Positions 1,442-47,861 of a DNA stretch of 64,000 nt are shown in pieces. Within the stretch, counting starts at the first letter, position 1. Each line of letters begins with the position of its first letter. The DNA is taken from positions 393,275 to 457,274 of the forward strand of contig NZ_CP046208.1 in the NCBI RefSeq assembly GCF_012570365.1, written 5' to 3'. This stretch comes from Enterobacteriaceae endosymbiont of Donacia clavipes (GTDB taxonomy: Bacteria > Pseudomonadota > Gammaproteobacteria > Enterobacterales > Enterobacteriaceae). A program made the translations under genes and the position numbers. Below the pieces are notes generated by a model. The model did no database searches. It worked only from the letters and a program-made list of their open reading frames with translations, and had not been told where the DNA came from.

Positions 1442-1806
1442 TGGTGGAGCTGGGGGGATTCGAACCCCCGTCCAAAATTACTACATTTTCGGAACTACAT
1501 GTTTATTTTTATTTTATAAATTTTAGTAATATTTAATAATAAAACAAATTCAATATTACATAGTCTATTTTATTTCTTTAATATATTATTTTAAGACTTA
1601 TAATATACGATCTCTTTAAATTATGACCTGTTTACTTTTCATTAAAGAGCAAATAATAAGAAACAGGGCTTTTACAGTTTTTTATGCTGCTAAAGCATAG
1701 TTTTGATTTTTTGCAATTACTTAAAATACGGTTTTTTTACAAGGCCTACCGTTTCCTTGACATGCTCCTAAAATTTGATAATTATGTCAAATCCATAATC
1801 AGCCCC
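1442..1806 (-). ncRNA. ssrA: tmRNA (ssrA)
   Basis: Transfer-messenger RNA that rescues stalled ribosomes together with SmpB. On the minus strand it begins GGGGCTGATT (base 1806) and ends with a T-arm (GGTTCGAATCC), an acceptor strand and an encoded CCA at 1442. The length is 365 nt, close to the 363 nt of E. coli. The resume reading frame (1685-1714, stop 1682-1684) encodes the tag AKNQNYALAA. Its last five residues YALAA match the E. coli degradation tag, so ClpXP-type recognition is probably kept. smpB lies immediately upstream on the same strand, as in E. coli. Confidence 0.95.
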
Positions 1807-2654: not shown

Positions 2655-3359
2655 ATGAATAATAATAAATCATTAAAAAAAATAGAAGAAAAAAAAATAG
2701 AAGAAAAAAAAATAGAAGAAAAAAAAATAGAAGAAAAAAAAATAGAAGAAAATATTAATAATAAATTAAATAATTTTAAATTAAATGATAATATAAAAAA
2801 TAAAGATTATATTAAATCTGAAAATCAACATACAATTAAATATTATAAAGAAAAAAATGATAAGTATAAATTAGAAATTTTGGAAATAAAAAATAAATTA
2901 AAAAAATATAAAAACGATATTTGGGAATTAAAATTACGTTCTCTATCTGAAATAGAAAATACTAGACGTAGATCTGCACTAGATGTTGAAAAAGCTTATA
3001 AGTTTTCATTAAAAAAAATTCTTCATGAATTATTACCAGTAATTGATAATTTAGAAAGAGCTATAAATTTAACAACAAAAACAAAAGATAATGTTAAATT
3101 ATCTATAATTGAAGGAATTAAATTAACTTTAAAATCTTTATTAGTATTAATAAAAAAATTTGGTGTTAATATTATTGATGAAATTAATATTCCTTTTAAT
3201 CCATCTCAACATCAAGCAATGTCTCTTGTAGAATCTAATAAAATAAAAAATAATTACATAATAGAAATTTTACAAAAAGGATATATTCTTAATAAAAGGT
3301 TATTAAGACCAGCTATGGTTGTTGTATCTAAAAATAAAGAAGATAAAAAAAATATTTAA
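2655..3359 (+). CDS. grpE: nucleotide exchange factor GrpE
   Basis: Co-chaperone that releases ADP from DnaK. It has 234 residues, longer than the usual 197 or so. The core is typical: a long coiled coil (about residues 75-125), then RRSALDVEKAYKFSLKKILHE, LLPVIDNLERAI and a C-terminal beta domain (FNPSQHQAMS, GYILNKRLLRPAMVVVSK). The extra length is an N-terminal lysine/glutamate tail that includes a perfect five-residue tandem repeat (see the separate entry). The start ATG has AAGGA 11 bp upstream. In E. coli grpE also diverges from the smpB-ssrA side of the map. Confidence 0.96.
   Translation: MNNNKSLKKIEEKKIEEKKIEEKKIEEKKIEENINNKLNNFKLNDNIKNKDYIKSENQHTIKYYKEKNDKYKLEILEIKNKLKKYKNDIWELKLRSLSEIENTRRRSALDVEKAYKFSLKKILHELLPVIDNLERAINLTTKTKDNVKLSIIEGIKLTLKSLLVLIKKFGVNIIDEINIPFNPSQHQAMSLVESNKIKNNYIIEILQKGYILNKRLLRPAMVVVSKNKEDKKNI
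2682..2753 (+). repeat. 15-bp tandem repeat inside grpE (IEEKK x4 plus a partial copy)
   Basis: Four consecutive identical 15-bp units encode I-E-E-K-K (residues 10-29), followed by a partial IEEN. Each unit ends in an eight-to-nine A run. The unit length is a multiple of three, so copy-number change keeps the frame and alters only the disordered, charged N-terminal tail of GrpE. Slipped-strand expansion is the likely origin. Confidence 0.95.
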
Positions 3360-4002: not shown

Positions 4003-4224
4003 TTATTCAAATATTTTAGAATTTTTAAATCTTTTTTTAAAATTTTCTACACGACCTTTAGTATCTGTAATTTTTTGTTTTCCAGTATAAAAAGGATGGC
4101 ATATATTACAAATATCTAAGCTTAATTCTTTATTATTATTTAAAGTTGATTTAGTATTAATAATATTTCCACAAGAACATTTAGCAGTAATATTATTATA
4201 TTGAGGATGAATATTTTTTTTCAT
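4003..4224 (-). CDS. rpmE: 50S ribosomal protein L31
   Basis: Large-subunit protein of 73 residues (70 in E. coli). It keeps the zinc-binding form: Cys16 and Cys18 (CSCG), and Cys39 and Cys42 ([12 protein letters not shown]). It diverges from priA, the same arrangement as in E. coli. Confidence 0.96.
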
Positions 4225-4330: not shown

Positions 4331-6385
4331 ATGAAAATAGTTAAAGTAGTATTTAATAATTCTATTTTATATCATAAATATGATTATATATTACCTAGTA
4401 ATATAGTAGTAAATATTGGTTATAGAGTTATAGTACCAATAAAAAATAAACAGTATATAGGTATAGTAATAGAAATAAAGAAAACTTCTAAAGTTATGCC
4501 CAATAAATTAAAATATTTATATAAGGTTTTAGATGAAAAATCACTTTTTAGTTTTTTTATTTGGAATTTTGCAAAAAAAATATCCAAATATTATCAATGT
4601 CCTATCGGAGTTATTTTATTTCAAATATTACCTATTTTTTATAGAAAAAATAATAGATTTCTTATAAATTCAAAAGGTTTATATTCAAAAAATAATAAAA
4701 ATATGTATAATTTTCAAATTAGATTAAAATTTTTAAAAAATAAAAAAATATTTTTTGATAATAAAAATAATATTAAATTACAAATTTATCTATTATGGAT
4801 AAATAATATATTTAAGATTATATATTATAAAATAAATTTTTTTAAAACCTGGGTTTTACAAGAAAATATAATCTTTTTTAAAAAAATTGATATTTATTTA
4901 AACTTAGTAAAAGTTATGTTACTTCATAAAAAACAAATATTAATTTTAGCTCCTCAAAAATATAATATTTTATATTTATATCAATTTTTTATAAAATTAA
5001 ACGTTTCCATTTGTTTATTACATTCAAATATTTCTATAAAAAAACAATTATTAACATTAGAAAATATAAAAAAAGGAAAAATATTAATAGTTATCGGTAC
5101 AAAATTTTCTATTTTTACACAATTTTTTAAATTAGGTCTGATTATTATAGATCAAGAAAATGATTTTATTTATAAACAAAATAATAAATGTAAATATAAC
5201 ATAAGAGATATTGCTGTTTTAAGAGCAAAAATGGAAAATATTCCCATAATATTAAGTTCTAAAACTTTAAGTTTAGAAACTATAAATAATATTAATGTTA
5301 ATAAATATAAATTTTTATTTTATAAAAACAAAAAAATATTATACAAAAAATATTTTAAATATATAATAATAGATATTAATAAAAAAATATTAAAATATAA
5401 ATTATTTTCTCGTTTTTTAATAAAAATGATAAAAATTTATCTTAAAAAAAAAGAACAAATAATTATATATTATAAATATATAGGATATTCAACTATTATA
5501 TTGTGTTATTTTTGTAAAAAAATATTAAAATGTATAGATTGTAATAAAAATTATATTTTTTATAAAAAATTATGGAAATTATATTGTAAATATTGTAAAA
5601 AAAATATTGATATGGTTTTATATTGCCCGTTGTGTAAAAAAAATTTTTTTATACCAATAGGTATTGGAATAGAACAGTTAAAAGAATTATTACAAAAATT
5701 ATTTCCAAATATATTAATTTTTACTATAAATAGCAAAAATTTTTTAAAAAAAATTTCTTTGATACGTAATAATAAACCTTTAATAATAATTTCTTCACAA
5801 ATTTTATATAAAGAATATTTTTTTATTTTAAAAAATAATTTAATAGTTTTATTAAATATAGATAATGTTTTTTTTTCAAAAAATTTTCGTACAATGGAAT
5901 ATTTTTCTCAATATATTTTTAATATATTAAATAATCATTTAGATACGAAAAAAAAAACAATTATTATACAAACAAATTATCCACAAAATAATTTTTTAAA
6001 AAAAATTTTTAAAAAAAATTATACATATAATGATATTGCTAATTATATATTATATGAAAGAAAAAAAATGTTATTACCTCCTTTTACTAATCATATTACT
6101 TTAATAATTGAATCTTATAAAAAAATAATTCTAATAAATTTTTTAAATAAATTTAAAAAAATATTAAAATTAAAGTATATAAATGAAAAAAATTTTTTTA
6201 TTATAGGTCCTGCATCATTAATACACAATAAACGAAAAGGATTATTTAGAAAAAAAATTATCTTACAACATTTATTAAAAATAAAATTACATTTTATAAC
6301 AATGAATATTCGTTCTATTGCAAAAAAAATTGTAAATTTTAATAAAATTAAATTGTTAATAAATGTTGATTCTACAGAATGGTAA
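4331..6385 (+). CDS. priA: primosomal protein PriA, ATPase/helicase motifs lost
   Basis: PriA normally recognises stalled forks and reloads DnaB, using a DNA-binding N-domain, a superfamily 2 helicase core and a zinc module. Here 684 residues (732 in E. coli) form one open frame. The N-domain is recognisable (HKYDYILP, GYRVIVP, YYQCPIGVILF) and all eight zinc-binding cysteines remain (392, 395, 401, 404, 419, 422, 432, 435), followed by GIGIEQL. The ATPase has decayed. The Walker A site is NIIFFKKI (residues 179-186, bases 4865-4888) where TGSGKT is expected. The Walker B DEEH has become DQEN (274-277). GSATP has become SSKTL. The GTQMLAKGHHFP and QVAGRAGR motifs are unrecognisable near 488-499 and 530-538. 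The C-terminal LPPFTNHI and LQH segments persist. A restart scaffold without helicase activity is the simplest reading; early pseudogenisation is the alternative. Confidence 0.9.
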   Translation: MKIVKVVFNNSILYHKYDYILPSNIVVNIGYRVIVPIKNKQYIGIVIEIKKTSKVMPNKLKYLYKVLDEKSLFSFFIWNFAKKISKYYQCPIGVILFQILPIFYRKNNRFLINSKGLYSKNNKNMYNFQIRLKFLKNKKIFFDNKNNIKLQIYLLWINNIFKIIYYKINFFKTWVLQENIIFFKKIDIYLNLVKVMLLHKKQILILAPQKYNILYLYQFFIKLNVSICLLHSNISIKKQLLTLENIKKGKILIVIGTKFSIFTQFFKLGLIIIDQENDFIYKQNNKCKYNIRDIAVLRAKMENIPIILSSKTLSLETINNINVNKYKFLFYKNKKILYKKYFKYIIIDINKKILKYKLFSRFLIKMIKIYLKKKEQIIIYYKYIGYSTIILCYFCKKILKCIDCNKNYIFYKKLWKLYCKYCKKNIDMVLYCPLCKKNFFIPIGIGIEQLKELLQKLFPNILIFTINSKNFLKKISLIRNNKPLIIISSQILYKEYFFILKNNLIVLLNIDNVFFSKNFRTMEYFSQYIFNILNNHLDTKKKTIIIQTNYPQNNFLKKIFKKNYTYNDIANYILYERKKMLLPPFTNHITLIIESYKKIILINFLNKFKKILKLKYINEKNFFIIGPASLIHNKRKGLFRKKIILQHLLKIKLHFITMNIRSIAKKIVNFNKIKLLINVDSTEW

Positions 6386-18025: not shown

Positions 18026-18063
18026 TAATAAATTATTTTATATAATTTATTATTTTTTTTTTT
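18026..18063 (+). terminator. intrinsic terminator of the rplS operon, overlapping recD
   Basis: Perfect 11-bp stem (18026-18036 with 18042-18052), five-base loop, then eleven T (18053-18063). The downstream half lies inside the last codons of the convergent recD, so the same bases serve as terminator and coding sequence. Confidence 0.8.
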
Positions 18064-19883
18064 ATATTAGAATATCTTTGTATTTTTATTTTTATTGATT
18101 TATAAAAAATTAGTTTATTACTATAAATTGTTATATTTTTTTTAGATCGTGTAATAGCAGTATATATTAGTTCTCTTGTTAGTAAAGGATAAAGTTTATT
18201 TGGTAATACTAAAGAAATATTTTTAAATTCTGATCCTTGAGATTTATGTGTTGTTATAGCATATGCTATTTCATGTGCTGGTAAATTTTTGATATCAACT
18301 ATCTTACATTTTTTTTTATTTGATAAAAATTTTACTCTTAATTTTTTATTATCTTTATCTAAATAAGTAATACCAATATCACCATTAAATAAATTTAAGA
18401 AATTATCATTTTGTATAATAATAATTGGTCTACCAATATACCAATTATTTTTTTTTGTATTATTATTGATTATTTTTTTATTAAAAAGTTCTTTTTCTAT
18501 TAGATTATTAATTTCTTTTGTACCAAATAATCCATTTTTTACAGCACATATTATTTGATAATGATTAAATTTATTTATAACTTTATTATTTTTATTATTA
18601 TTTTTATTTAAATAATTAAAATATTTTTTATATTCATTAATGAAATTTTGTATCATTAACTCATATTCCTTTATATTTGAAATATTAATATAATTTATAT
18701 TATTAAATTTTTTTAATGAAAATAATTCTTTAATTTTTAAAATATTTCCTTGTTTTATTAATTCTGCTAATTTATTAATTCCTGAATTATTTTTATATCT
18801 ATAATTATTTTTTAAGACAGTAATAAAATTACGAAAAAAAAATTTAGTTTTTTTTAAATTTTTTTTTATTTTATTGTTAGTAATTATTCTTAATAAAGAA
18901 AAATATTTTTGTGTAAAAAAAAATTTTTTAAAATAACATAAATCTTTAAAAACATTTCCATATTCTATGGAAGGCAACTGATAATCATCTCCTAATAAGA
19001 TTAAATGACATTTTAAAGGTAATTTTTTTAAAATAATATACATTAAATTAGAATCTATCATAGATGATTCATCTATTATTAATAAATTTACATCTAAGAT
19101 TTTTGTATTATTAAATATAGTTTTTTTAGTATAAATATTTAATTTTAATAAACTATGTATAGTAGTTGCTTTATTTGGAATATCTTTTTTTTCTTTTTCG
19201 TTTATTTTTTCTTTAGAAATATTTTTAAAAAATTTATTTATAGATTCTGTTAATCTAACAGATGCTTTTCCAGTAGCAGCAGCAACTTTTATTTTTAAAG
19301 ATTTTGAAAAAATTTTAATAAATGTAAAAATTATTTTTGGTATTATACTTGTTTTACCAGTTCCTGGAGAACCAGTTATAATACTAATCCTATGTGTTAA
19401 TGAAGCAAAAATAGCTGTTTTTTGTAAAATTTCATTTTTTTTAAATAAAAAATTTAATATATTTTTAATTTTACCTTTTTTTATAAAAACATAATTATTT
19501 TTAATAAAATTATTAACTATAAAATTTTCTTCATACCAATTTTTATATAAATATAAACAATTATTTTCTAATATAATAGGAGTAATTTTTTCTCCATTAC
19601 TAACAATATCTTTATAAGATAATAAAATTTTCTTCCAATTTTTGATTTTATTAATTTCTTGTATTTTTTTTAATAAAAAAGAATATTTTTTATTTTTAAG
19701 TTTTTTTTTAAAATATAATTTAGATATTGGTAAACAAGTATTTCCTTTTCCAATATTATTGCTAAGTAAAGTAACAGCAAACATTAAAAATTTATGTTTT
19801 TTAGAAACAAGTATAAGAGAAAAATATAAATCAACTAAACGAATGATTTTTATTTTACATAATTTTTTTAAAAAATTATACAT
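18033..19883 (-). CDS. recD: exodeoxyribonuclease V subunit alpha RecD
   Basis: 5'-3' helicase motor of RecBCD. 616 residues (608 in E. coli). Motifs: Walker A GSPGTGKTS; AAATGKASVRL; TTIHSLL; Walker B LLIDESSMID; ILLGDDYQLPS; a C-terminal AYAITTHKSQGSEF and YTAITRSKK. All helicase motifs appear intact. It follows recB by 32 bp in the order recC-recB-recD; E. coli also has ptrA between recC and recB, missing here. Its last codons carry the rplS terminator on the other strand. Confidence 0.96.
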   Translation of the reverse strand: MYNFLKKLCKIKIIRLVDLYFSLILVSKKHKFLMFAVTLLSNNIGKGNTCLPISKLYFKKKLKNKKYSFLLKKIQEINKIKNWKKILLSYKDIVSNGEKITPIILENNCLYLYKNWYEENFIVNNFIKNNYVFIKKGKIKNILNFLFKKNEILQKTAIFASLTHRISIITGSPGTGKTSIIPKIIFTFIKIFSKSLKIKVAAATGKASVRLTESINKFFKNISKEKINEKEKKDIPNKATTIHSLLKLNIYTKKTIFNNTKILDVNLLIIDESSMIDSNLMYIILKKLPLKCHLILLGDDYQLPSIEYGNVFKDLCYFKKFFFTQKYFSLLRIITNNKIKKNLKKTKFFFRNFITVLKNNYRYKNNSGINKLAELIKQGNILKIKELFSLKKFNNINYINISNIKEYELMIQNFINEYKKYFNYLNKNNNKNNKVINKFNHYQIICAVKNGLFGTKEINNLIEKELFNKKIINNNTKKNNWYIGRPIIIIQNDNFLNLFNGDIGITYLDKDNKKLRVKFLSNKKKCKIVDIKNLPAHEIAYAITTHKSQGSEFKNISLVLPNKLYPLLTRELIYTAITRSKKNITIYSNKLIFYKSIKIKIQRYSNIKKKIINYIK

Positions 19884-19915
19884 ATTTTTTATTATTAAAT
19901 TTTATTATAATTAAA

Positions 19916-22900
19916 TTAATAAAATAATTCACTTAATTCATTAATTAATTTGTAAGATGGTCTAATTTCCAAAATACCACTTTTTTTTTTTTTATGTATT
20001 CCTCTAATGTATAAAAATATAACTCCTCCGAAATTATTTTCATAATTATAATTAATAATACGATAATTTAAATATTTATGTAAAGCTAAAGTATAAATTT
20101 GGTATTGTATATCATAACGGTTTAAACATATATCTTTTTTAAGATATTTTTTTTGATAATATTTATGATTATAACCTAACCAATTAGTTTTATAATCTAT
20201 AATATAATATTTTTGATTCCATAAAAAGATTAAATCGATTACTCCAGTTAAAAATCCTTTAATTTTTTGAAAATTTAATTTAGTGAGTTTATTAGAAATA
20301 AAATCATATTTATTTATGATATTATTAAATTTTTCGGAAGAAAAAAAATCCTTTATTGATAAAAAAAATTCAAATTCTGTTTTTTTATTTGCATTATTTA
20401 TTTTACTTAAAATAATTTTATTATTACCTAATGGAGTTAATAAAATATTATTTAACCATTTTGTTAATATAATACTCCAAGAAGAATCAATATTTTTTTT
20501 TATTAATTCTTTTTTAATAAAATTATTTATAATAGGTTTTGTAAAATTTAATTTTTCTAAAATATTATGAATTATAATACCTACATTTTTCCCAATAGGA
20601 AAAGTATATTGTGTTTTTTTTATATTTTTTTTATTAAAATTTAAAAATTTATGTTTATAATTATTATTAGAGTTATTTAGATAGTTATCTTGTTCTTTTT
20701 TTATTTGTGAATAACTTAATAAAATTTTATTTTTATAGTTAAAATTTTTATTTTTGAATTTAAGTAAATATTTATCTTTTATTTCTTTTTTATAAATTAT
20801 ATTTAATTTTATAATTTTTTTTTTTTCTATATTTTGAATCCAAATATCTTTATTTTTTAAATTATTTAATTTTTTTTTTAAATTTATATTAGAATTATTA
20901 TTTTTATTTTTAATTAAAAAATTTAAAGAAGTATTATATGATAAATATAAGTTTTGTTGTTTTGAATTATTAAATTTTATATTTGAAATTCCAATACTAC
21001 AATGGAAAATAGATCTTGTTAAAGCTACATATAATAATCTTAAATTTTCAGAAAGTGATTCTTCCAAAAATAATTTTATACTTTCATTATTTTTTTTAAA
21101 ATCTATATTTATTTCAAAATTTTTTCTATTATGAAAAATTATACCATTATTGTTTATTGAATCTAAAGTATTTGAAGAAATAAATGGTAACCAAACAATA
21201 GGAAATTGTAATCCTTTTGCTTTATGTATAGTCATAATTTTTATTTTATTAATATCATTATGTAATTCATTCTGTTTATTTAATAAAGTTTTATTAGGAT
21301 ATGTAATTTGTTGTAATAACCATTTTATTATTATTTTATTATTTTTTATATTAAAACATGATATTTGTATTAATTCTCCTAAATATAAAATATTTACTAT
21401 TTTTTTTTTAATATAATTAGAATTATTTTTTTGTAAAAAAAAAGAATCTTTTAAAAAAATTGTTTCTAACATATTAAGAATACCTTTTTTTTCCCAAATA
21501 TATTTATATTTAGTAAATTTATAAATTATTTTTTTAATAAAATATTTTTTTTTATCATTATCAAAATAAGATAAATCTATATTAAATAATTTGCTTGCTA
21601 AAAAATTTATGATTCTTTTTTTTTTATTAGGTTCTAAAATAGATTTTAATAATAAAAATAATTCTTTTGCTTCTTGTGTTTCAAAAATATTATCAAATTT
21701 TGATAAATAAATAGAAGGTAAATTAAATTTTATAAATTCTTCTTGTAAAATATCAGATTCATAACGATTACGAACTAAAATAGTTATATCTGAAATAGTA
21801 ATTTTCTGATTTTTTCCATTTTTATGTAAAAATGCCTTATTTTTTTGACCTAAAATTATTAATTTACATATTTTATATGCACATTGATACGCTATTTTTT
21901 TTTTATATAAATTTATACTAATTTTTTTATTCATATACCAAAAAGTAATACCAGGTTTTATTTTATCATTTATAATTAAATGATAATTTAATTTTTTTAT
22001 TGTATAAAAAATAGGACGAAAAACTATATTTTTAAATAAAAAAGGATGTGATCTATTAGAAAATAATTTATTTACACTATTAACCATTGTACTAGATGAA
22101 CGCCAATTGTTTTTTAATGTATAACATTTTTTAATTTCAGATGAAGCTTGTAGATAAGTAAAAATATTAGCACCTCTAAAAGAATAAATGGCTTGTTTAG
22201 GATCTCCTATTAAAAAAATAATATGTTTAGATTGATTTAGATATATTTTTTTTAAAATATTATATTGTTGTTGATCTGTATCTTGAAATTCATCTACTAA
22301 AACGACAGGAAATAAATTTCTTATGTCTTTAGATATTTGATCTCCTGAGATACCATTTAATTCTTTATTTAAAATATTTAATAAATCATTAAAACTTATT
22401 TTTTTTTTTTTTTTTTTCTCTTTAATTACATATTGATTTATATATTTTATCGCTTTTAAAATTATTAAAAATTTTAAATTAATAATTTTATTTAAAAATT
22501 TTTCTATAATTTTAAATAAGATATGTTTTGGTATTTTTTTTTTATCAATAGTTTTTTCATTTAAAATTTTTTGAGAAAATCTTAATAATTGTTTAGGATA
22601 AGAATTATTTACAGTTTTTGTAAAACTCCATAAATTAATAATATTTATCCAATTATTTATTAATTTTTTATTATAAATATGTTTATTAACATTAGAATTA
22701 TATATAGTATTTACTATAATATTTTTATATTTAATCCAAAATTTTTTTATTATATTAATATATTTTATGTTTTTGTGAAATTGTTCTAATATATTAATAT
22801 TTTTAAGGTGATATTTTATTATTAAAGTTGATTTTTTTGTTATAAATGGTATTAATGAATTTAATAAATCATTAGGAGATTTCCAATAAAAAAAAATAAT

Positions 22901-23455
22901 TTTAATTATTTTTTTTGGTAAATTATAAAAATATTTTCTCCAAAAAAATATAGATGCTTTTTGTTGTAAAATTAATTCATCATTAATTATTTTTTTATTT
23001 AAAAAAAAATTCTGAAATTCATAATTTTTTAAATTTATTATTTTTTGACAAAAAGCATGTATTGTATAAATAGATGCATTATGCATATTTAATTCAGCTC
23101 TTAATAATAAAGTAATAGCTATTTTTCGATTTTTAATTTTTTTTATAAGTTTATTTATAATATTATATTTACTTTTACCTTCTATACATCCAATATATAG
23201 CATATGAATACTTTTTTTTATTCTTTTACATAAATTTTGTATTGCAATATCAGTAAAAGTTACTACTAAAATTTGTTCTACATTTAAAGGAATAACGTTA
23301 TCATTTTTTTTATATAATCCTAAAAGCATTCTTAAATATATTATAATAATAGTAAATGTTTTACCAGTACCTGCAGAGGCTTCTATAAGATATTCTCCTT
23401 TTAAATTTTTTTTAAATGGATCAAATTCTTTAAATTTTATTTTATTTTTTTTCAT
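19916..23455 (-). CDS. recB: exodeoxyribonuclease V subunit beta RecB
   Basis: 3'-5' helicase plus the nuclease of RecBCD. 1179 residues from the ATG at 23455 (1180 in E. coli); an alternative ATG at 23479 adds eight residues. Helicase motifs: EASAGTGKTFTI, VVLVDEFQDTD, GDPKQAIYSFRGANIFTY, TIHKAKGLQFPIVWLPF, LLYVALTRS. The nuclease domain keeps its catalytic Asp and Lys (GFLTGVIDLIF, IIDYKTNWLG) and the end YDIQYQIYTLALHKYL, so the enzyme looks active. A run of 19 A (minus strand, 22399-22417) encodes a hexalysine stretch between VIKE and ISFNDLL. It overlaps the end of recC by 14 bp. Confidence 0.96.
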   Translation of the reverse strand: MKKNKIKFKEFDPFKKNLKGEYLIEASAGTGKTFTIIIIYLRMLLGLYKKNDNVIPLNVEQILVVTFTDIAIQNLCKRIKKSIHMLYIGCIEGKSKYNIINKLIKKIKNRKIAITLLLRAELNMHNASIYTIHAFCQKIINLKNYEFQNFFLNKKIINDELILQQKASIFFWRKYFYNLPKKIIKIIFFYWKSPNDLLNSLIPFITKKSTLIIKYHLKNINILEQFHKNIKYINIIKKFWIKYKNIIVNTIYNSNVNKHIYNKKLINNWINIINLWSFTKTVNNSYPKQLLRFSQKILNEKTIDKKKIPKHILFKIIEKFLNKIINLKFLIILKAIKYINQYVIKEKKKKKKISFNDLLNILNKELNGISGDQISKDIRNLFPVVLVDEFQDTDQQQYNILKKIYLNQSKHIIFLIGDPKQAIYSFRGANIFTYLQASSEIKKCYTLKNNWRSSSTMVNSVNKLFSNRSHPFLFKNIVFRPIFYTIKKLNYHLIINDKIKPGITFWYMNKKISINLYKKKIAYQCAYKICKLIILGQKNKAFLHKNGKNQKITISDITILVRNRYESDILQEEFIKFNLPSIYLSKFDNIFETQEAKELFLLLKSILEPNKKKRIINFLASKLFNIDLSYFDNDKKKYFIKKIIYKFTKYKYIWEKKGILNMLETIFLKDSFFLQKNNSNYIKKKIVNILYLGELIQISCFNIKNNKIIIKWLLQQITYPNKTLLNKQNELHNDINKIKIMTIHKAKGLQFPIVWLPFISSNTLDSINNNGIIFHNRKNFEINIDFKKNNESIKLFLEESLSENLRLLYVALTRSIFHCSIGISNIKFNNSKQQNLYLSYNTSLNFLIKNKNNNSNINLKKKLNNLKNKDIWIQNIEKKKIIKLNIIYKKEIKDKYLLKFKNKNFNYKNKILLSYSQIKKEQDNYLNNSNNNYKHKFLNFNKKNIKKTQYTFPIGKNVGIIIHNILEKLNFTKPIINNFIKKELIKKNIDSSWSIILTKWLNNILLTPLGNNKIILSKINNANKKTEFEFFLSIKDFFSSEKFNNIINKYDFISNKLTKLNFQKIKGFLTGVIDLIFLWNQKYYIIDYKTNWLGYNHKYYQKKYLKKDICLNRYDIQYQIYTLALHKYLNYRIINYNYENNFGGVIFLYIRGIHKKKKSGILEIRPSYKLINELSELFY

Positions 23456-26400
23456 TATTATATAAACTCTGATCAGCATAATAAATTAAATTAAACATCC
23501 ATTTTTGAATTAATTTTTTAATTTTTATCCATTCTTTGCTATCTAAATTAAAACTTAATCTATCAAAATATAAATCTTTAGATTCTCCTATAAAATAATC
23601 ATTTTTATTCCAATAATAAAAAAAAATTTTTTTTGCTTTATTCTGTATAGCATAATCATTATTAATAATTTTTTTTTCTTTATTATAACAAATATTTATC
23701 CATTTCCATGAACTTTTTATAGGTAACATAATAGGGAAACTTATACCAGATATATAACCTTTAATATATTTTTTTAATAAAACATAAGCTTTATCTTTAG
23801 ATAAGATTTGAAAAATATATTTTGTATTTTTCGAACCAAATAATAATAAACTAGAATTAACATAAATATTATTTACACATAAAATTAAATGTTCTATCCA
23901 TAAACTAATAATATTCTTAATATCTATTATTTTAGGTTCAAATTTTATTAAATTATTATTATAATTTAAATACTTAATTTGTCCTTTTAAATTAATATTT
24001 AAAATTTTTAAATCAATTTTATTAATTATTTCTGTATATTTATTTTTTTTAAAATTATAATTAAATATTTTTTTCATTTTATTTACTCTTTCTTCCCACC
24101 ATATTTTTCCATAATATCCATAAAGTAAAATATTTTTATTTAAATAATAATTATACAAATTATTAATATTTTTATTTAAAATTAATGAATATAATATTTT
24201 TTTATTAATAATATATTCTTGTAAATAATCAATATTAAATGGTTCTGTATTTAATAACTTAATTTTATTTAAATCTTGTAAATATATTTTTAATCTTTGA
24301 TTAAAAAAACCTTTAACAGGGTGTTTCCAAAAATTAATTAAATTATTAATTTTTATTTTTGTTATTTTTATAGATTTTAAAATATTGATATTTTTATTAT
24401 ATATATTATTTTCTTCTTTTTTTTTTAGTATAAAATTAAATTTATTTTTATAAATATATTTAATAATATGATTATTAATTTTATTATTTTTTATATAATA
24501 ATTATTAGAAATATATATTAATAATTCATTAATTATACTAGATGAAATATTTTGAACATTATTTATTTTTTTATTATTAGAATAACTAATATATAATTTT
24601 TTTTCTGCAGACATTATTAATTTTAAAAATAAATTTTTATCTTCATCTAAATAATTTTTTTCTTCTTTATAAGGATAATTTTTCATTAAATCAAAAATAA
24701 TAGGATATGACTTTTTTGGAAAATATTCATTATTCATTCCTATCATAAAAATTTTTTTAAAAGGTATATTTTGAAATATATGAAAAGGACAAAAATTTAT
24801 TTTATTTATATGAAAAAAAAATTTTTTATTTTCTTGTTTAATTTGATATTTAATTTTTTCTATTATTATATCAATAGATATTTTTTCTTTATATTTTGAT
24901 ACTAGTCCATTTTCAAGAAAAAATATTATTTTTTTTATAATAAAATATATATTATTATATAAATAAGTACTATAAGGAAAAAAATCAGAATATAATTTTA
25001 ATATAATTTTTTGCCATTTTTTTAAAAAATATTTTTTATTAAGTTGATTTTTCCATTTTTCTAATTTAAATAAAAAACTAGTAAATTTACCAAGTAAATC
25101 TTTAGATAAACCAATAGAACCATTATAAGGAATAATATTATTCCATTTTTCAAAATTAAATGCATAATTTAAAAACATACGGTGTAAACCTAATTTCCAT
25201 GTATATTGATCTTTATTAAAGATAATTTTATTAAAATTTTTAAAATTTAGACCATATTTTATGCCTAATTTTTTAACCCAATAATTTAAATATTCTAAAT
25301 CTTCTTTATTTAAAAAAAATTTTTTAGATATATATTTATCTTCTAATAAAAAAAAAATTTCTTCAGGAGTAAATTTTTTATAAGGTAAATTTAATAAAAA
25401 TAAAATTTTTTTTAAAATATTCAAATTTTTTAATTTATTAGAATTAGAACCTATATTAATTGGTAAATTACAATTTTTAAATACTGAATTAATAAATGGG
25501 ATATATAATTCTAAATTAGGAGATATAATAATTATATCATGTAAAAAATAATTTTTATTTTTTTTTAAAGTATATAATACTTCATTATATAATAATTTTA
25601 TCTCTGTATAAAAATCTTCACAAATATATATTTGAAGAGATTTATCTGAATAACTTATTTCTTTTTTTTGATTATTTTTATTATTTATATTATATTCGTA
25701 TGAATATAATATATTATTTTTTATATTATTTAATAAATTTATTGTATTATTTTTTATAAAAGTTTCAATAATTCTAGCTGGTAAATCTACTAGTTTATTA
25801 ACATTATTTAAATGATAATTTCCCCAAGAAAGTAATAATTTATTATAAATATAATTTTCATTATTAATATTTATATTTTTATTATATTTATAATTTGGTA
25901 AATTATCCCAATAATATTTAGATGGACTATATATTAAGATATGTATTTCTATATATTTTTCTATTTCTTTTAATAATTTTAAATGTATTAAAGGAATATT
26001 TTGTATATCTAATATAAATATTCTTTCCGGTAAAAATTTATATTTAAAATTATTCTTTTTCTTATTTTTATTATGAAATTTATATAATTTTCCATAATTC
26101 CATAATGTTTTATTTAACTTATTTTTATAATATATTAATAATTCTTTCCATAATTTAGCTTGCCATATTTGATGTTTATCTTTTAATGATAAAAAAAATT
26201 CATTATATTCCCATAATAATAACCATTCTGGTTTATATTTTTGATACTTATCATATAAATTTGCTATTTGTATAGATAAATTAAATAAATAATTAAAATC
26301 TTTTATTTTATAATAAAAATTTTTTTTAAAATAATGAAATTCTGGAGTATATATTAATTTAGGAAAAATTAATGCTATTTTCCAAATAATATTTTCTTTA

Positions 26401-26660
26401 CATAAAAAATCATCTTTATCTATGTTAGGTATTATTTTTTTGAATAAGTTCCAAATAAATTTATCAAAAGAAAGAAAGTCAATATTTCCATATATTCCTA
26501 GTATATTTGAAAAATTTATTTTTATTAATTTAGAAAAACTCATATTATTACATAAAATTATTTCTGATTCTAATGGATTTATTAATGGTTTTTTGATAAT
26601 TTGTATTTTTATTAAATTTAATAAAATATCTATATTATTAGAATAATAAATTGTAAACAT
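23442..26660 (-). CDS. recC: exodeoxyribonuclease V subunit gamma RecC
   Basis: Non-catalytic RecBCD subunit that splits the duplex and reads Chi. 1072 residues (1122 in E. coli). The beginning MFTIYYSNNIDILLNLIK matches the RecC start. Also recognisable are LPERIFILDIQNIPLIHLKLL, PLAR-like DLPARIIETFI, IFKKIFMIGMNNEYFPKKSYP and the end WIKIKKLIQKWMFNLIYYADQSLY. It is much more diverged than RecB or RecD, which is usual. Whether the Chi-recognition residues survive cannot be judged by eye. Confidence 0.94.
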   Translation of the reverse strand: MFTIYYSNNIDILLNLIKIQIIKKPLINPLESEIILCNNMSFSKLIKINFSNILGIYGNIDFLSFDKFIWNLFKKIIPNIDKDDFLCKENIIWKIALIFPKLIYTPEFHYFKKNFYYKIKDFNYLFNLSIQIANLYDKYQKYKPEWLLLWEYNEFFLSLKDKHQIWQAKLWKELLIYYKNKLNKTLWNYGKLYKFHNKNKKKNNFKYKFLPERIFILDIQNIPLIHLKLLKEIEKYIEIHILIYSPSKYYWDNLPNYKYNKNININNENYIYNKLLLSWGNYHLNNVNKLVDLPARIIETFIKNNTINLLNNIKNNILYSYEYNINNKNNQKKEISYSDKSLQIYICEDFYTEIKLLYNEVLYTLKKNKNYFLHDIIIISPNLELYIPFINSVFKNCNLPINIGSNSNKLKNLNILKKILFLLNLPYKKFTPEEIFFLLEDKYISKKFFLNKEDLEYLNYWVKKLGIKYGLNFKNFNKIIFNKDQYTWKLGLHRMFLNYAFNFEKWNNIIPYNGSIGLSKDLLGKFTSFLFKLEKWKNQLNKKYFLKKWQKIILKLYSDFFPYSTYLYNNIYFIIKKIIFFLENGLVSKYKEKISIDIIIEKIKYQIKQENKKFFFHINKINFCPFHIFQNIPFKKIFMIGMNNEYFPKKSYPIIFDLMKNYPYKEEKNYLDEDKNLFLKLIMSAEKKLYISYSNNKKINNVQNISSSIINELLIYISNNYYIKNNKINNHIIKYIYKNKFNFILKKKEENNIYNKNINILKSIKITKIKINNLINFWKHPVKGFFNQRLKIYLQDLNKIKLLNTEPFNIDYLQEYIINKKILYSLILNKNINNLYNYYLNKNILLYGYYGKIWWEERVNKMKKIFNYNFKKNKYTEIINKIDLKILNINLKGQIKYLNYNNNLIKFEPKIIDIKNIISLWIEHLILCVNNIYVNSSLLLFGSKNTKYIFQILSKDKAYVLLKKYIKGYISGISFPIMLPIKSSWKWINICYNKEKKIINNDYAIQNKAKKIFFYYWNKNDYFIGESKDLYFDRLSFNLDSKEWIKIKKLIQKWMFNLIYYADQSLYNNEKK

Positions 26661-30026: not shown

Positions 30027-31754
30027 ATGATTTCAGGAATTTTAGCTTCTCCTGGTATTTCTTTTGGTAAAGCATTTTTATTAAAGATTGATAATTTTAT
30101 TATTAATCATAATAAAATTACTAATAATCAAATAGATTTAGAAATTAATAAATTTTTAAATGGGCAAAAAAAATCTGTAAAACAATTAGAATATATAAAA
30201 AATAATTCATTAAAAAAATTTAGTTCTAATAAATTATCAATTTTTGATGGACATATTCTTTTATTAAAAGATGAAGAAATGACTAAAGAAGTTATATTTT
30301 TAATAAAAAATAATCTTTTATCAGCAGATAGTGCAGTAAATTTAGTAATAAAATCTCAAATAAAAATTTTAAAAAATTTAAAAGATAAATATTTAAAAGA
30401 AAGAATTATTGATATTAAAGATATAGGAAATCGTTTAATAAAAAATATTTTAGGTTTAAATACTAAAAATTTAGATGAAATTAATAGTAAAGTAATTTTA
30501 ATTGCAAAAGATCTTACACCATCAGAAACTGCTCAATTAGATTTAAAAAAGATTTTAGGTTTTATTACTGATTTAGGTAGTAAAACTTCTCATACTGCTA
30601 TAATGGCTCGTTCATTAGAAATACCTGCTATTGTAGGTACTGGTAATATAACTACAAAAGTTAAAACTAATGATTATATTATTTTAGATAGTATTAATAA
30701 TAATATTTTTATTAATCCTACAAATGAAATAATTAAAAAAAAAAAGATAATATATAATAAATATATAATAGAAAAAAATGAGTTTAAAAAAAAATGTATT
30801 TTACCTGCTATAACTAAAGATAATTATAAAATTAAAGTTTGTGCTAATATAGGTTCATTAAATGAATTAAAAAATATTATAAAAAATGGTGCTGATGGTA
30901 TAGGTTTATATCGTACAGAGTTTTTATTTATGAATCGAAATTCTTTTCCTTCCGAAGAAGAACAATTTCATGTTTATAAAACAGTAACAAAAGAAATGAA
31001 CAATAAACCTGTAATCATTAGAACAATGGATATAGGTGGAGATAAAAAAATACCATATATGAATTTACCTAAAGAAGAAAATCCATTTTTAGGATATAGA
31101 GCTATTAGAATTAGTATAGATCGTAAAGATATTTTACATACCCAATTAAGAGCACTTTTAAGAGCATCTATTTTTGGTAAATTACATATTATGTTTCCTA
31201 TGATAATCTCAATAGAAGAAGTTTTTTTTTTAAAGGAAGAATTAAATTTTTTAAAAAAACAATTACAAAATGAAAAATATGATTTTAATAAAAATATTCC
31301 TATAGGAATAATGGTAGAAACTCCTGCATCTGCTATAATAGCTCATCATTTAATAAAAGAAATTGATTTTTTTAGTATTGGAACTAATGATTTGATACAA
31401 TACACTTTAGCTGTAGATCGTGGTAATGATTTAATTTCACACTTATATAATCCAATGCATCCTGCTGTATTTTATTTAATAAAAAAAGTAATAGATGCTT
31501 CACATTCAGAAGGAAAATGGACAGGAATGTGTGGTGAATTAGCAAGTAATGAACATTTTATCCCTGTATTATTAGGTATGGGATTAAATGAATTTAGTAT
31601 GAGTGCTATTTCTATTCCAAAAACAAAAAATATTATTTGTAGAATAAAAATGAAACAAGCTATAGAATTAGCTAATAATGTTTTATTACAATCTAATATT
31701 AAAAATATAAAAAATTTATTATTAGAATTTAACAAAAAAATTAATCTTTATTAA
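30027..31754 (+). CDS. ptsI: phosphoenolpyruvate-protein phosphotransferase (PTS enzyme I)
   Basis: Transfers phosphate from PEP to HPr. 575 residues, the same length as E. coli. It starts MISGILASPGISFGKAFLL. The phosphohistidine is His189 (GSKTSHTAIMARSLEIPAIVG). PEP-binding motifs are GIGLYRTEFLFM, RTMDIGGDKKIPY and FFSIGTNDLIQYTLAVDRGN, and the catalytic cysteine is in GMCGELASN. A strong AGGGGT ribosome-binding site stands 9-14 bp before the ATG. Confidence 0.97.
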   Translation: MISGILASPGISFGKAFLLKIDNFIINHNKITNNQIDLEINKFLNGQKKSVKQLEYIKNNSLKKFSSNKLSIFDGHILLLKDEEMTKEVIFLIKNNLLSADSAVNLVIKSQIKILKNLKDKYLKERIIDIKDIGNRLIKNILGLNTKNLDEINSKVILIAKDLTPSETAQLDLKKILGFITDLGSKTSHTAIMARSLEIPAIVGTGNITTKVKTNDYIILDSINNNIFINPTNEIIKKKKIIYNKYIIEKNEFKKKCILPAITKDNYKIKVCANIGSLNELKNIIKNGADGIGLYRTEFLFMNRNSFPSEEEQFHVYKTVTKEMNNKPVIIRTMDIGGDKKIPYMNLPKEENPFLGYRAIRISIDRKDILHTQLRALLRASIFGKLHIMFPMIISIEEVFFLKEELNFLKKQLQNEKYDFNKNIPIGIMVETPASAIIAHHLIKEIDFFSIGTNDLIQYTLAVDRGNDLISHLYNPMHPAVFYLIKKVIDASHSEGKWTGMCGELASNEHFIPVLLGMGLNEFSMSAISIPKTKNIICRIKMKQAIELANNVLLQSNIKNIKNLLLEFNKKINLY

Positions 31755-32395: not shown

Positions 32396-32863
32396 TTATA
32401 ATAAAATACGACTATGTGTAATGGCAATTGCTAATGCATCAGCAGCATCAGTTTTAGGATAAAAAGGTAATTTTAATAACATAAAAACCATATCTTGTAC
32501 TTGTTTTTTTTTAGCATTTCCTATTCCGACAACAGTCATTTTTACTTTACTTGCTGAATATTCAAAAACAGAAAGGTTATGATTAACAGCAGATACTATA
32601 GCAGCACTTCTTGCATGACCTAATTTTAAAGCAGAATCAGCATTTTTAGCCATAAAAATTTGTTCTATAGCGAAATTATCTGGTTTAAATTTATTTATTA
32701 TTTTACTTACATTATTATAAATTATTTTTAATCTTGTAGGAAAATCTTTAATTTTTAAAATTATACATCCGCTATCAATATAAATTATTTTTTTCCCATT
32801 TTTTTTAATTAAACCGTATCCTGTTACTCTAGAACCAGGATCAATACCTAAAATTATTGTCAT
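32396..32863 (-). CDS. ruvC: Holliday junction resolvase RuvC
   Basis: Dimeric endonuclease that cuts Holliday junctions. 155 residues, against 173 in E. coli; only the non-catalytic C-terminal tail is shortened. Catalytic acids are conserved: Asp8 ([14 protein letters not shown]), Glu67 ([11 protein letters not shown]), Asp139 and Asp142 ([13 protein letters not shown]). Order aspS-yebC-ruvC follows E. coli, but ruvA and ruvB do not follow here, and crr is next instead. They may be elsewhere or lost. Confidence 0.95.
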
Positions 32864-46007: not shown

Positions 46008-46355
46008 TTAATTTATTTTATAAATATTCCATATTTTTTCTAAATATATTTTACAATAAAAATTATTTATTTTTAGAATATTTTTATTATTTATCATAAT
46101 AATATAATCCATATTATAAAATATATATTGATTTAAACGAAAATATTCCCGAATAATTCTCTTAAATTTATTTCTAATATTTGTTTTTTTAATTTTTTTT
46201 TTTGGTATAATTATACCAATTCTAGAATATTTTAATTTATTTATATGACTTAAAATAGTAAAATACTTATTTTTTATTTTATTTGGGTGATTAAATATAA
46301 AATTAAAATTTAATGAAGTTAAACGTTTTTTTTTAGAAAAATGAAAATTATTCAC
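46008..46355 (-). CDS. rnpA: ribonuclease P protein component
   Basis: Protein subunit that helps RNase P RNA mature tRNA 5' ends. 115 residues (119 in E. coli). The start is GTG at 46355, as in E. coli, four bases after the rpmH stop. Signature RNKFKRIIREYFR, plus RIGIIIPKKKIKKTN. The RNA partner rnpB was not found in the window. Confidence 0.94.
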   Translation of the reverse strand: MNNFHFSKKKRLTSLNFNFIFNHPNKIKNKYFTILSHINKLKYSRIGIIIPKKKIKKTNIRNKFKRIIREYFRLNQYIFYNMDYIIMINNKNILKINNFYCKIYLEKIWNIYKIN

Positions 46356-46359
46356 TTTT

Positions 46360-46515
46360 TTATTTAAATTTTATTTTATCTGATACAGTCAAATAAACAC
46401 GATTTTTAGCACGACGACGATTTAAAATATTTCTCCCATTATGTGTTTTCATTCTGGTTCTAAAACCATGAGATCTTTTTCTTTTCAATATAGATGGTTG
46501 AAAAGTACGTTTCAT
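46360..46515 (-). CDS. rpmH: 50S ribosomal protein L34
   Basis: 51 codons: [20 protein letters not shown], then [20 protein letters not shown] and a YLTVS ending. This is the classic L34 plus a short extra tail (DKIKFK), so it is about five residues longer than E. coli L34. Conserved pair rpmH-rnpA. The ATG is at 46513-46515 on the minus strand. Confidence 0.97.
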
Positions 46516-46697
46516 TTAAATTTATACCTATATATATTTATATATAATTTATTATTACATAAAAAAAATATTTTATATATTTTTTTTTTAAAATATTTAA
46601 AATAAATTAATAATTTAATTACTAACATTATTTAATATGTTATCATTATAATGATAATGTTTTATGTTATATATTTAAATTAAAAAATAAAAAATTT
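46516..46697. promoter_or_regulatory. rpmH-dnaN divergent intergenic region, dnaA missing
   Basis: 182 bp between divergent rpmH and dnaN. In E. coli this junction holds the rpmH/dnaA promoters and the dnaA gene. Here dnaA is gone. The gap contains an 18-bp perfect palindrome (46640-46657, TTATCATTATAATGATAA), inside a weaker AACATTAT/ATAATGTT pair (46624-46631 with 46654-46661). No TTATCCACA-type DnaA box and no GATC site were seen, so a DnaA-type origin is not supported. Promoters for both flanking genes are expected. Confidence 0.55.
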
Positions 46698-47825
46698 ATG
46701 GAATATAGTATTATAATTAATCGTGAATTATTAATAAAACCATTACAATATATTACAAATATTATTACTAATCGTTCCGTATTACCAATAATTAATAATA
46801 TTTTAATAGAATTTTTAGAAAATGGAATAATTATTTTTAAAAGTACTAATTTAGAAATAGAAATAGTATCTATTTTAAATAATAAATTTAACAAAAAAAA
46901 ATATTCTATTACAATACAAGGAAAAAAATTTTATAATATATGTTATAGTTTACCCAAAAATAAAGATATTAAAATTTTATTTAACAAAAATCAAGCTGTA
47001 ATATCATCACAAAAATGTTATTTTACAATAACTATTTTTCCTGTAAATAATTTTCCTGGTATAAATTTTATAAAACATGATATAAAATTTAATCTTACTC
47101 ATAATATGATAAAAACATTTATAAATGCTACTTATTTTTCAATAGCTAATAATGATGTAAGAAAATATTTAAATGGTTTGTTATTACAAATTAAAAATAA
47201 TATTTTAAATGTTGTATCAACTGATGGGCATCGTTTATCCATTTATACTTCATATATTTTTAACACAAAAATAATTGATGACTATTCTGTAATTATACCA
47301 CGTAAAAGTATATTTGAATTATCAAGGTTAATTAAAAATACTGATGAATTAGTAAATATAAAAATTAATAATGATAATATCTGTTTTATTTTTAATAATT
47401 TAAAATTTACATCTAAACTAATTAAAGGTGAATTTCCTGATTACTTAAAAATTATACCTAAAATATTTCATAAAACTATTAAAATTAATCGTATTATATT
47501 TAAAAATGCTTTACATAGAATTTCTATTCTTGTAAATGAAAAAACTAAAGGAGTAACATTATCATTTAATGATTATAATTTAAAAATTTTTAGTATCAAT
47601 ATTAATAATGAAATGGCTGAAGAAATATTAGAAATAGAAAAATATGATAATAAAATAAAATATGATATTGATATATCAATAAATATTAATTATTTAATTG
47701 ACGTAATAAATGTATTAGATGGTAATATTATAAAAATATCTTTTATTAATAATATTTCTAGTATTAAAATAGAAGATATTTATAATAAAAATAAATTTTA
47801 TTTAATCATGCCAATGAAAATTTAA
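46698..47825 (+). CDS. dnaN: DNA polymerase III subunit beta (sliding clamp)
   Basis: Ring-shaped processivity clamp. 375 residues (366 in E. coli). Three-fold repeated clamp domains are recognisable from NRELLIKPLQYIT, RSVLPIINNILIE, VVSTDGHRLSIY, GEFPDYLKIIP and the C-terminal LIMPMKI, where E. coli has MPMRL. It is 36 bp upstream of gyrB, with recF (normally between them) deleted. Confidence 0.96.
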   Translation: MEYSIIINRELLIKPLQYITNIITNRSVLPIINNILIEFLENGIIIFKSTNLEIEIVSILNNKFNKKKYSITIQGKKFYNICYSLPKNKDIKILFNKNQAVISSQKCYFTITIFPVNNFPGINFIKHDIKFNLTHNMIKTFINATYFSIANNDVRKYLNGLLLQIKNNILNVVSTDGHRLSIYTSYIFNTKIIDDYSVIIPRKSIFELSRLIKNTDELVNIKINNDNICFIFNNLKFTSKLIKGEFPDYLKIIPKIFHKTIKINRIIFKNALHRISILVNEKTKGVTLSFNDYNLKIFSININNEMAEEILEIEKYDNKIKYDIDISININYLIDVINVLDGNIIKISFINNISSIKIEDIYNKNKFYLIMPMKI

Positions 47826-47861
47826 AATTTAATTTAATATAAAGATATGTGAGAGTTTAAT

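Follow-up and report, generated by a model that had tools for sequence, protein, structure and literature searches.

A PriA protein without a working motor has been measured in Deinococcus radiodurans, where PriA is a pseudohelicase that has no ATPase activity, does not unwind DNA, and binds fork DNA and DnaB (PMC4504706). In that protein an arginine takes the place of the Walker A lysine, motifs I and II match poorly, and D. radiodurans has no clear homologue of PriB or DnaT (PMC4504706). In Escherichia coli, the ATPase-dead PriA mutant K230R assembles primosomes without helicase activity in viable cells (PMC4504706). It is also known that dnaA has been lost in insect symbionts and dnaC in some of them (PMC3620526, PMC2659769). 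Here we describe the priA gene of the Enterobacteriaceae endosymbiont of Donacia clavipes, which lies in a stretch of 64,000 nucleotides (positions 393,275 to 457,274 of contig NZ_CP046208.1, hereafter the window) of a genome of 463,028 bases in two contigs, together with its counterparts in 23 other reed-beetle symbionts; these 24 genomes are called the genus below. The data suggest that these symbionts load their replication machinery by means of a motorless PriA scaffold instead of a DnaA-based system.

The reed-beetle protein has in common with that of D. radiodurans that motifs I and II are degenerate and apparently non-working in an otherwise intact PriA, and that neither PriB nor DnaT was found over the family cut-off in any genome of the genus (0/24 each). 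It differs in that the P-loop, GTQM and GRAGR have been replaced and the winged helix has been lost in the Donacia clade, and in that neither DnaA nor DnaC was found in the genus, while Deinococcus keeps DnaA. The E. coli mutant K230R is alike in having the scaffold role without helicase activity that is proposed for the reed-beetle protein, and differs in being one engineered residue rather than an evolved state and in working with PriB and DnaT, as well as with DnaC, none of which was found here. Whereas a PriA pseudohelicase is known from D. radiodurans, the reed-beetle variant, with its motifs replaced and DnaA and DnaC not found, is new. In the literature on "PriA" and "pseudohelicase", the D. 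radiodurans work (PMC4504706) stood alone in having PriA in its title, and the titles and abstract openings listed held no report of a motif-less PriA in insect symbionts, which is no proof of its being unpublished.

Identity and motif state of PriA

The open reading frame (ORF) at 4331-6385 of the window is a PriA orthologue by sequence, predicted fold and domains. As the original prediction stated, the frame is intact, with an ATG at 4331, 684 codons, and no stop before the one that ends at 6385, and both an N-terminal DNA-binding domain and C-terminal segments are recognisable (the 3' DNA-binding domain, 3'BD, PF17764, and PriA_C, PF18074, the latter barely above its cut-off; Table 1). The ORF reaches 260.6 bits with TIGR00595 against a curated cut-off of 230.35, its predicted fold superposes on the solved structure of E. 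coli PriA, and in the VIA-align list the PriA rows are followed by other superfamily 2 (SF2) helicases, as the shared lobes would predict. The closest database protein, from the symbiont of D. semicuprea, is 92% identical.

The motifs were read from an alignment with intact enteric PriA. In the window protein Walker A has changed from GVTGSGKT to NIIFFKKI, Walker B from DEEH to DQEN, GSATP to SSKTL, GTQMLAKGHHFP to SSQILYKEYFFIL, and GRAGR to NNHLD, and the eight zinc-binding cysteines are all present. The original prediction had listed these losses and the persistence of the cysteines, and the alignment with the related symbionts extends much of this to the genus, in which the frame is open and Walker A, GTQMLAKGHHFP and GRAGR are lost in 24/24 proteins, so that none carries the motifs of an active helicase, while the eight cysteines are kept in 24/24. 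None of the 24 has the three P-loop glycines or the two GRAGR arginines. For Walker B and GSATP the predicted loss stands in the window protein and not genus-wide: DQEN is confined to the window protein and DKEN to the protein nearest to it in the set, the other 22/24 keep EEH after an altered first residue, and GSATP is whole in G013, with SATP in G019 and G011.

It could be argued that the pocket is still able to bind and hydrolyse ATP by means of non-canonical residues, given that, besides the EEH of the 22 proteins, the second glutamate of DEEH is present in 24/24, and that lysine occupies the Walker A lysine column in 13/24 proteins of the genus and in 18/18 other motif-less proteins. Nonetheless, the missing P-loop glycines and GRAGR arginines, the residue after the lysine, which is threonine in 1/24 and serine in none, and the fact that a change of K to R by itself ends the ATPase activity of E. 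coli PriA (PMC4504706) make such a cryptic ATPase very improbable.

The winged-helix region has 52 residues in the window protein versus mostly 97-101 in intact PriA, and residues 109-168 are predicted to be disordered rather than to form a winged-helix domain. In G006, the Plateumaris group, G002 and G020 the region has 92-96 residues, and given that it varies within the genus it was not used for excluding PriA identity. Among the residues that we take to line the SSB-tail pocket, Y86 and K370 are kept in 24/24 proteins, W82 in 0/24, R697 in 4/24 (K in 19) and Q701 in 13/24. A check of 3'-end-pocket residues was discarded because their numbering disagreed with that of the reference, which has P at position 61.

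Selection on priA

The priA frame is open in all 24 genomes and encodes 675-729 residues, the single TAA flagged in G012 being the terminal stop. Neutral evolution was simulated 50 times along the gene tree, without indels; every run ended with 0/24 frames open, and the frames held about 72 stops each. The protein alignment of the genus has 47 distinct gap intervals, yet all frames are open. The ratio of nonsynonymous to synonymous rates (omega), obtained from our own MG94 codon likelihood, is 0.218 for 15 Donacia-type genomes and 0.224 for 5 Plateumaris-type genomes, with omega = 1 rejected in both (twice the log-likelihood difference of 754 and 183, respectively), and 0.178 and 0.193 in smaller clusters of 3 and 4 genomes. 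Uniformly neutral evolution along the gene, which would have marked it as a pseudogene, is therefore not seen. Given that omega is well below 1 and that the frames are open in 24/24 genomes, priA is a selected pseudohelicase and not a pseudogene. A decaying gene left open by chance would fit the extreme A+T bias and high rates, which are typical of decay, as well as the shortened PriA frames of 532-667 codons in other symbiont genera (G379, G434, G077, G250, G233, G210 and G170) and the TGA-holding frames of G162, G329, G389, G257 and G148, but the simulations, the gap intervals and the rejection of omega = 1 leave this hardly credible. In the last five genomes the PriA matches (L047, L070 and L076-L078) hold 1-4 in-frame stops, all TGA, which reflect either decay or the reading of TGA as an amino acid.

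The constraint is strong, though weaker than normal, as omega is 0.064 and 0.073 for the control gene mnmG and 0.048 for intact PriA in two enterics. With a time scale shared among the regions, the values for the Donacia and Plateumaris clades, respectively, are 0.181 and 0.188 for the 3'BD, 0.683 and 0.251 for the winged helix and linker, 0.165 and 0.133 for lobe 1, 0.278 and 0.333 for residues 331-390, 0.166 and 0.271 for the zinc module, 0.191 and 0.283 for lobe 2, and 0.184 and 0.239 for the C-terminal domain. With a free time scale for each region, omega ranges over 0.13-0.26 in Donacia (0.71 for the winged helix and linker) and 0.13-0.38 in Plateumaris, all below 1. A sliding scan of the Donacia clade is near-neutral only at about residues 109-168, and the former motif sites are strongly constrained. 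The forecast that the helicase lobes would be relaxed thus failed, since they have stayed constrained and only the winged helix and linker of Donacia are relaxed.

These data also bear on whether PriA has been taken over for another job, for example as a DNA-binding architectural or fork-protection protein that does not load DnaB. The lost ATPase residues and winged helix, the changed SSB-pocket residues, and an omega of 0.22 versus 0.05 in the two enterics would all be accommodated by such a change. However, it is improbable, as every structural unit of PriA except the winged helix is constrained, the zinc cysteines are kept throughout the genus and in the readable motif-less PriAs of other symbionts, and the fold superposes on that of E. 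coli PriA.

PriA in other symbionts

TIGR00595 was run over 392 genomes of the family, in which high and lower scorers separate among the small genomes, and 44 small-genome symbionts were chosen for a second look at the PriA motifs; 74 PriA loci were fetched, and G034 and G035, which have no forward frame, stayed outside the alignments. In 8 of the 44 all motifs are recognisable, some with single changes, G113 and G062 are intermediate, and the remainder either lack the motifs or are not long enough for one or more of them to be judged. Outside the genus, 18/18 motif-less PriAs chosen as readable have kept the eight zinc cysteines. In these proteins the P-loop glycines are mostly gone and the Walker A lysine column holds lysine in 18/18, possibly for DNA contact or as an alignment effect in lysine-rich proteins.

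We call Buchnera-type a set of 21 genomes from eight small-genome genera (g43, g55, g77, g98, g115, g116, g144 and g178) that have dnaA, dnaC and priA at like positions, of which only G137 was tied to Buchnera aphidicola. The PriA of these symbionts resembles that of the reed-beetle symbionts in having lost the motifs, kept the eight cysteines, and remained constrained (omega 0.204 in a group of 5 genomes and 0.157 in one of 4). The two differ in that the Buchnera-type genomes keep DnaC (12/12 examined) and often DnaA (13/21), and in that the winged-helix region has kept its length (95-98 residues). RecA is missing from Buchnera, and a divergent PriA has been described in actinobacteria (PMC1193525).

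The 13 Buchnera-type genomes with DnaA all have a PriA without GRAGR (the DnaA match of G306 overlaps its DnaC match and was left uncounted), and, conversely, the PriA motifs are recognisable in the DnaA-less G080, G130, G169 and G218. The presence of DnaA, therefore, does not follow the motif state of PriA, and the notion that the helicase was lost because DnaA was lost is rejected, given that many symbionts with a motif-less PriA have DnaA. The link between the two losses is not specific. PriB was found over its cut-off in 7/52 genomes, all of which keep Walker A and none of which has a motif-less PriA; the motifs are also kept in G080 and G169, which have no PriB.

In a PriA tree built without the motif columns from 56 of the 72 aligned sequences, the other 16 being short or broken, the motif-less G094 groups with the intact G169 and G178 (support 96) and the partly degraded G113 with an intact clade (support 100). 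These placements indicate a minimum of two to three losses of the motor. The reed-beetle and Buchnera-type losses may be one event or separate ones, as long branches may attract. In P0060 and P0061, distant proteins from the database that carry the PriA 3'BD, the classic P-loop seems absent by eye, so that PriA without a motor may occur more widely outside symbionts.

Replication setting of the genus

DnaA was not found over its cut-off in 23 genomes of the genus (0/23), and the 24th, G023, gave no match at E 1e-8. At the usual dnaA locus of the window the gene order is yidC-rnpA-rpmH-dnaN-gyrB, so that rpmH is directly followed by dnaN, with dnaA missing between them, as originally predicted, and recF missing between dnaN and gyrB (46008-50273). 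Sub-cut-off DnaA matches in 5 genomes lie inside the ptsI ORF (30027-31754 of the window) by position and were taken as false. No DnaC-family match over the cut-off occurs among the 24 genomes, the 22 genomes that have one all being outside the genus; the sub-cut-off matches in the genus, among the matches listed, lie in frames of mostly about 780, 420 and 447 amino acids (aa), overlong for DnaC. Sub-cut-off PriB matches (23/24 genomes) were read as SSB from their frame length of 172-242 aa. DnaB is present in 23/23 genomes examined, and RecA and RNase HI (PF00075 over its cut-off) in 24/24. Given this presence of RNase HI, initiation from R-loops of the constitutive stable DNA replication (cSDR) type through loss of RNase HI is disfavoured.

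The third-position GC (GC3) and TA (TA3) skews were each decomposed into a coding-strand component and a best-fit component for the replication strand, using 200 position shuffles, after a first look and a run on six genomes with 100 shuffles; the sample comprises stretches of about 13-36% of each of 10 genomes, which are few and not independent. In the reed-beetle symbionts G000 and G009, the GC3 replication part is 0.033 (p 0.84; TA3 p 0.13) and 0.040 (p 0.48; TA3 p 0.42), respectively, so that the leading/lagging asymmetry of a DnaA-oriC system was undetected in the sampled stretches. The GC3 skew of both tracks the coding strand alone. The two chromosomes look to be without a fixed leading strand, as expected of dispersed, DnaA-independent initiation, and with the missing DnaA this bears out the DnaA-independent setting of the original prediction. 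The pattern agrees with the irregular skew of DnaA-free or DnaA-independent cyanobacteria, some of which have multiple origins (PMC7198777), although the available part of that paper makes no link to a PriA pseudohelicase. Other DnaA-less symbionts gave 0.037 (p 0.76; G110, motif-less PriA), 0.062 (p 0.08; G170, Walker A unreadable and GRAGR lost) and 0.021 (p 0.88; G130, intact PriA), and the DnaA-positive, Buchnera-type G240 gave 0.098 (p 0.005). The most polarised of the sampled genomes are G030 (0.240, p 0.005) and G425 (0.283, p 0.005), both without a DnaA or PriA match, which accords with a published association of strong asymmetry with the loss of restart genes (Klasson and Andersson 2006, cited in PMC4613354).

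The asymmetry of G030 and G425 indicates that some symbionts have a fixed origin that works without DnaA, and the Buchnera-type genomes that keep a motif-less PriA beside DnaA (13/21) show that a restart role alone can keep PriA. Both observations fit a scaffold that merely mends broken forks, as in E. coli restart, with initiation left to another, unrecognised mechanism that is fixed or host-controlled. A fixed origin should, however, give an asymmetry like that of G030 and G425, which was undetected in G000 and G009, and none of the initiator and loader families searched for was found in the genus. We therefore regard a restart-only role as unlikely.

Proposed role of PriA

The gene product is best read as a helicase-free scaffold for DnaB, as put forward originally, for which D. 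radiodurans PriA is a measured precedent (PMC4504706). We consider it fairly probable that the priA product is a motorless scaffold that recruits DnaB at forks and D-loops independently of ATP, and we infer its loss of ATPase activity, DNA binding, contact with DnaB, and initiating role. The protein has been stripped of its ATP-binding and ATP-hydrolysing residues and, in the Donacia clade, of the winged helix as well, but it retains the 3'BD, the zinc module, the C-terminal domain and, as its structural core, both lobes. In the proposed mechanism, the RecBCD double-strand-break route could, together with RecA, make D-loops at breaks or collapsed forks, which PriA would recognise, like forked DNA, without ATP through the 3'BD and the lobes. 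It would then hand DnaB directly to the forked DNA, this direct recruitment being proposed because PriB, DnaT and DnaC were not found. Given that no DnaA was found, PriA is probably the main recognised route of replisome loading, and such loading would make initiation dispersed rather than fixed at oriC. The perfect synteny and the genome erosion that predates beetle diversification (PMC7289800) fit an old loss of the motor.

A further reading, in which there is no DnaA-type origin and the motorless PriA is the ATP-free sole initiator at many chromosomal sites, passing DnaB directly to D-loops made by RecBCD and RecA, without PriB, DnaT or DnaC, a state reached through repeated loss of the motor among insect symbionts, is tentative and, taken as a whole, would more readily fail than hold.

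Several points weigh against these readings. The motif loss is not clean, as seen in the EEH and GSATP remnants, three of the presumed SSB-pocket residues are not conserved, and priA is less constrained than mnmG or intact enteric PriA; moreover, purifying selection is silent on which function it keeps. Weak replication signals came from two genomes that lack DnaA and have an intact PriA, G080 in GC3 (0.065, p 0.025) and G169 in TA3 (p 0.005; GC3 0.043, p 0.09). PriA as sole loader is not proven, PriC, RecG, Rep and DciA not having been searched for. By term counts, the main texts of PMC7289800 and of the reed-beetle symbiont RNA-seq paper PMC12508126 do not mention priA, dnaA, replication or helicase.

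Features of the window

The positions of the features are collected in Table 1. The priA gene is flanked by the divergent rpmE on one side and followed by mnmG. RecC scores 524.3 bits with TIGR01450, below the cut-off of 582.9. A tmRNA gene (1442-1806, reverse strand; tag AKNQNYALAA) adjoins smpB, and GrpE (2655-3359, forward strand) starts with a run of near-identical KKIEE units.

Table 1. Positions of priA, its parts and other features in the window (pLDDT, predicted local distance difference test)
Feature	Position	Strand	Evidence
priA-derived pseudohelicase gene, 684 aa	4331..6385	+	frame, families, predicted structure
3' DNA-binding domain, aa 1-106, constrained	4331..4648	+	PF17764 74.9 bits; omega ~0.18; pLDDT mostly 74-91
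degenerate winged helix/linker, aa 107-170, shortened	4649..4840	+	omega 0.68; aa 109-168 predicted disordered
former helicase lobe 1, aa 171-330	4841..5320	+	Walker A and GSATP lost; predicted fold intact; omega 0.165
Walker A site, aa 178-185	4862..4885	+	replacement sequence conserved in clade, omega 0.14
zinc (cysteine-rich) module, aa 391-440	5501..5650	+	eight Cys all kept
former helicase lobe 2, aa 441-580	5651..6070	+	GTQMLAKGHHFP and GRAGR lost; omega 0.19
PriA C-terminal domain, aa 581-684	6071..6382	+	PF18074 27.1 bits, cut-off 26.9; omega 0.18
rpmE (L31), divergent neighbour of priA	4003..4224	-	PF01197
recD, recB, recC	18033..26660	-	RecD TIGR01447 and RecB TIGR00609 over cut-off; RecC below
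ruvC	32396..32863	-	TIGR00228
rnpA(-) rpmH(-) dnaN(+), dnaA locus without dnaA	46008..47825		dnaN TIGR00663; rnpA and rpmH named by eye

Significance

For insect symbionts it has long been asked how replication starts in bacteria without dnaA. In the present case, a whole genus of beetle symbionts keeps a selected, motorless PriA without the other loader families searched for, and this, together with the missing signature of a fixed origin in two sampled chromosomes, narrows the question to one candidate protein and opens it to testing in a system of one protein, one partner (DnaB), forked DNA and no ATP. The motif-less PriAs of several lineages, Buchnera included, amount to a natural experiment in which the scaffold role of PriA is separated from its helicase role. 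Should the tentative sole-initiator reading hold, a restart helicase driven by ATP would have become the only initiator, working without ATP.
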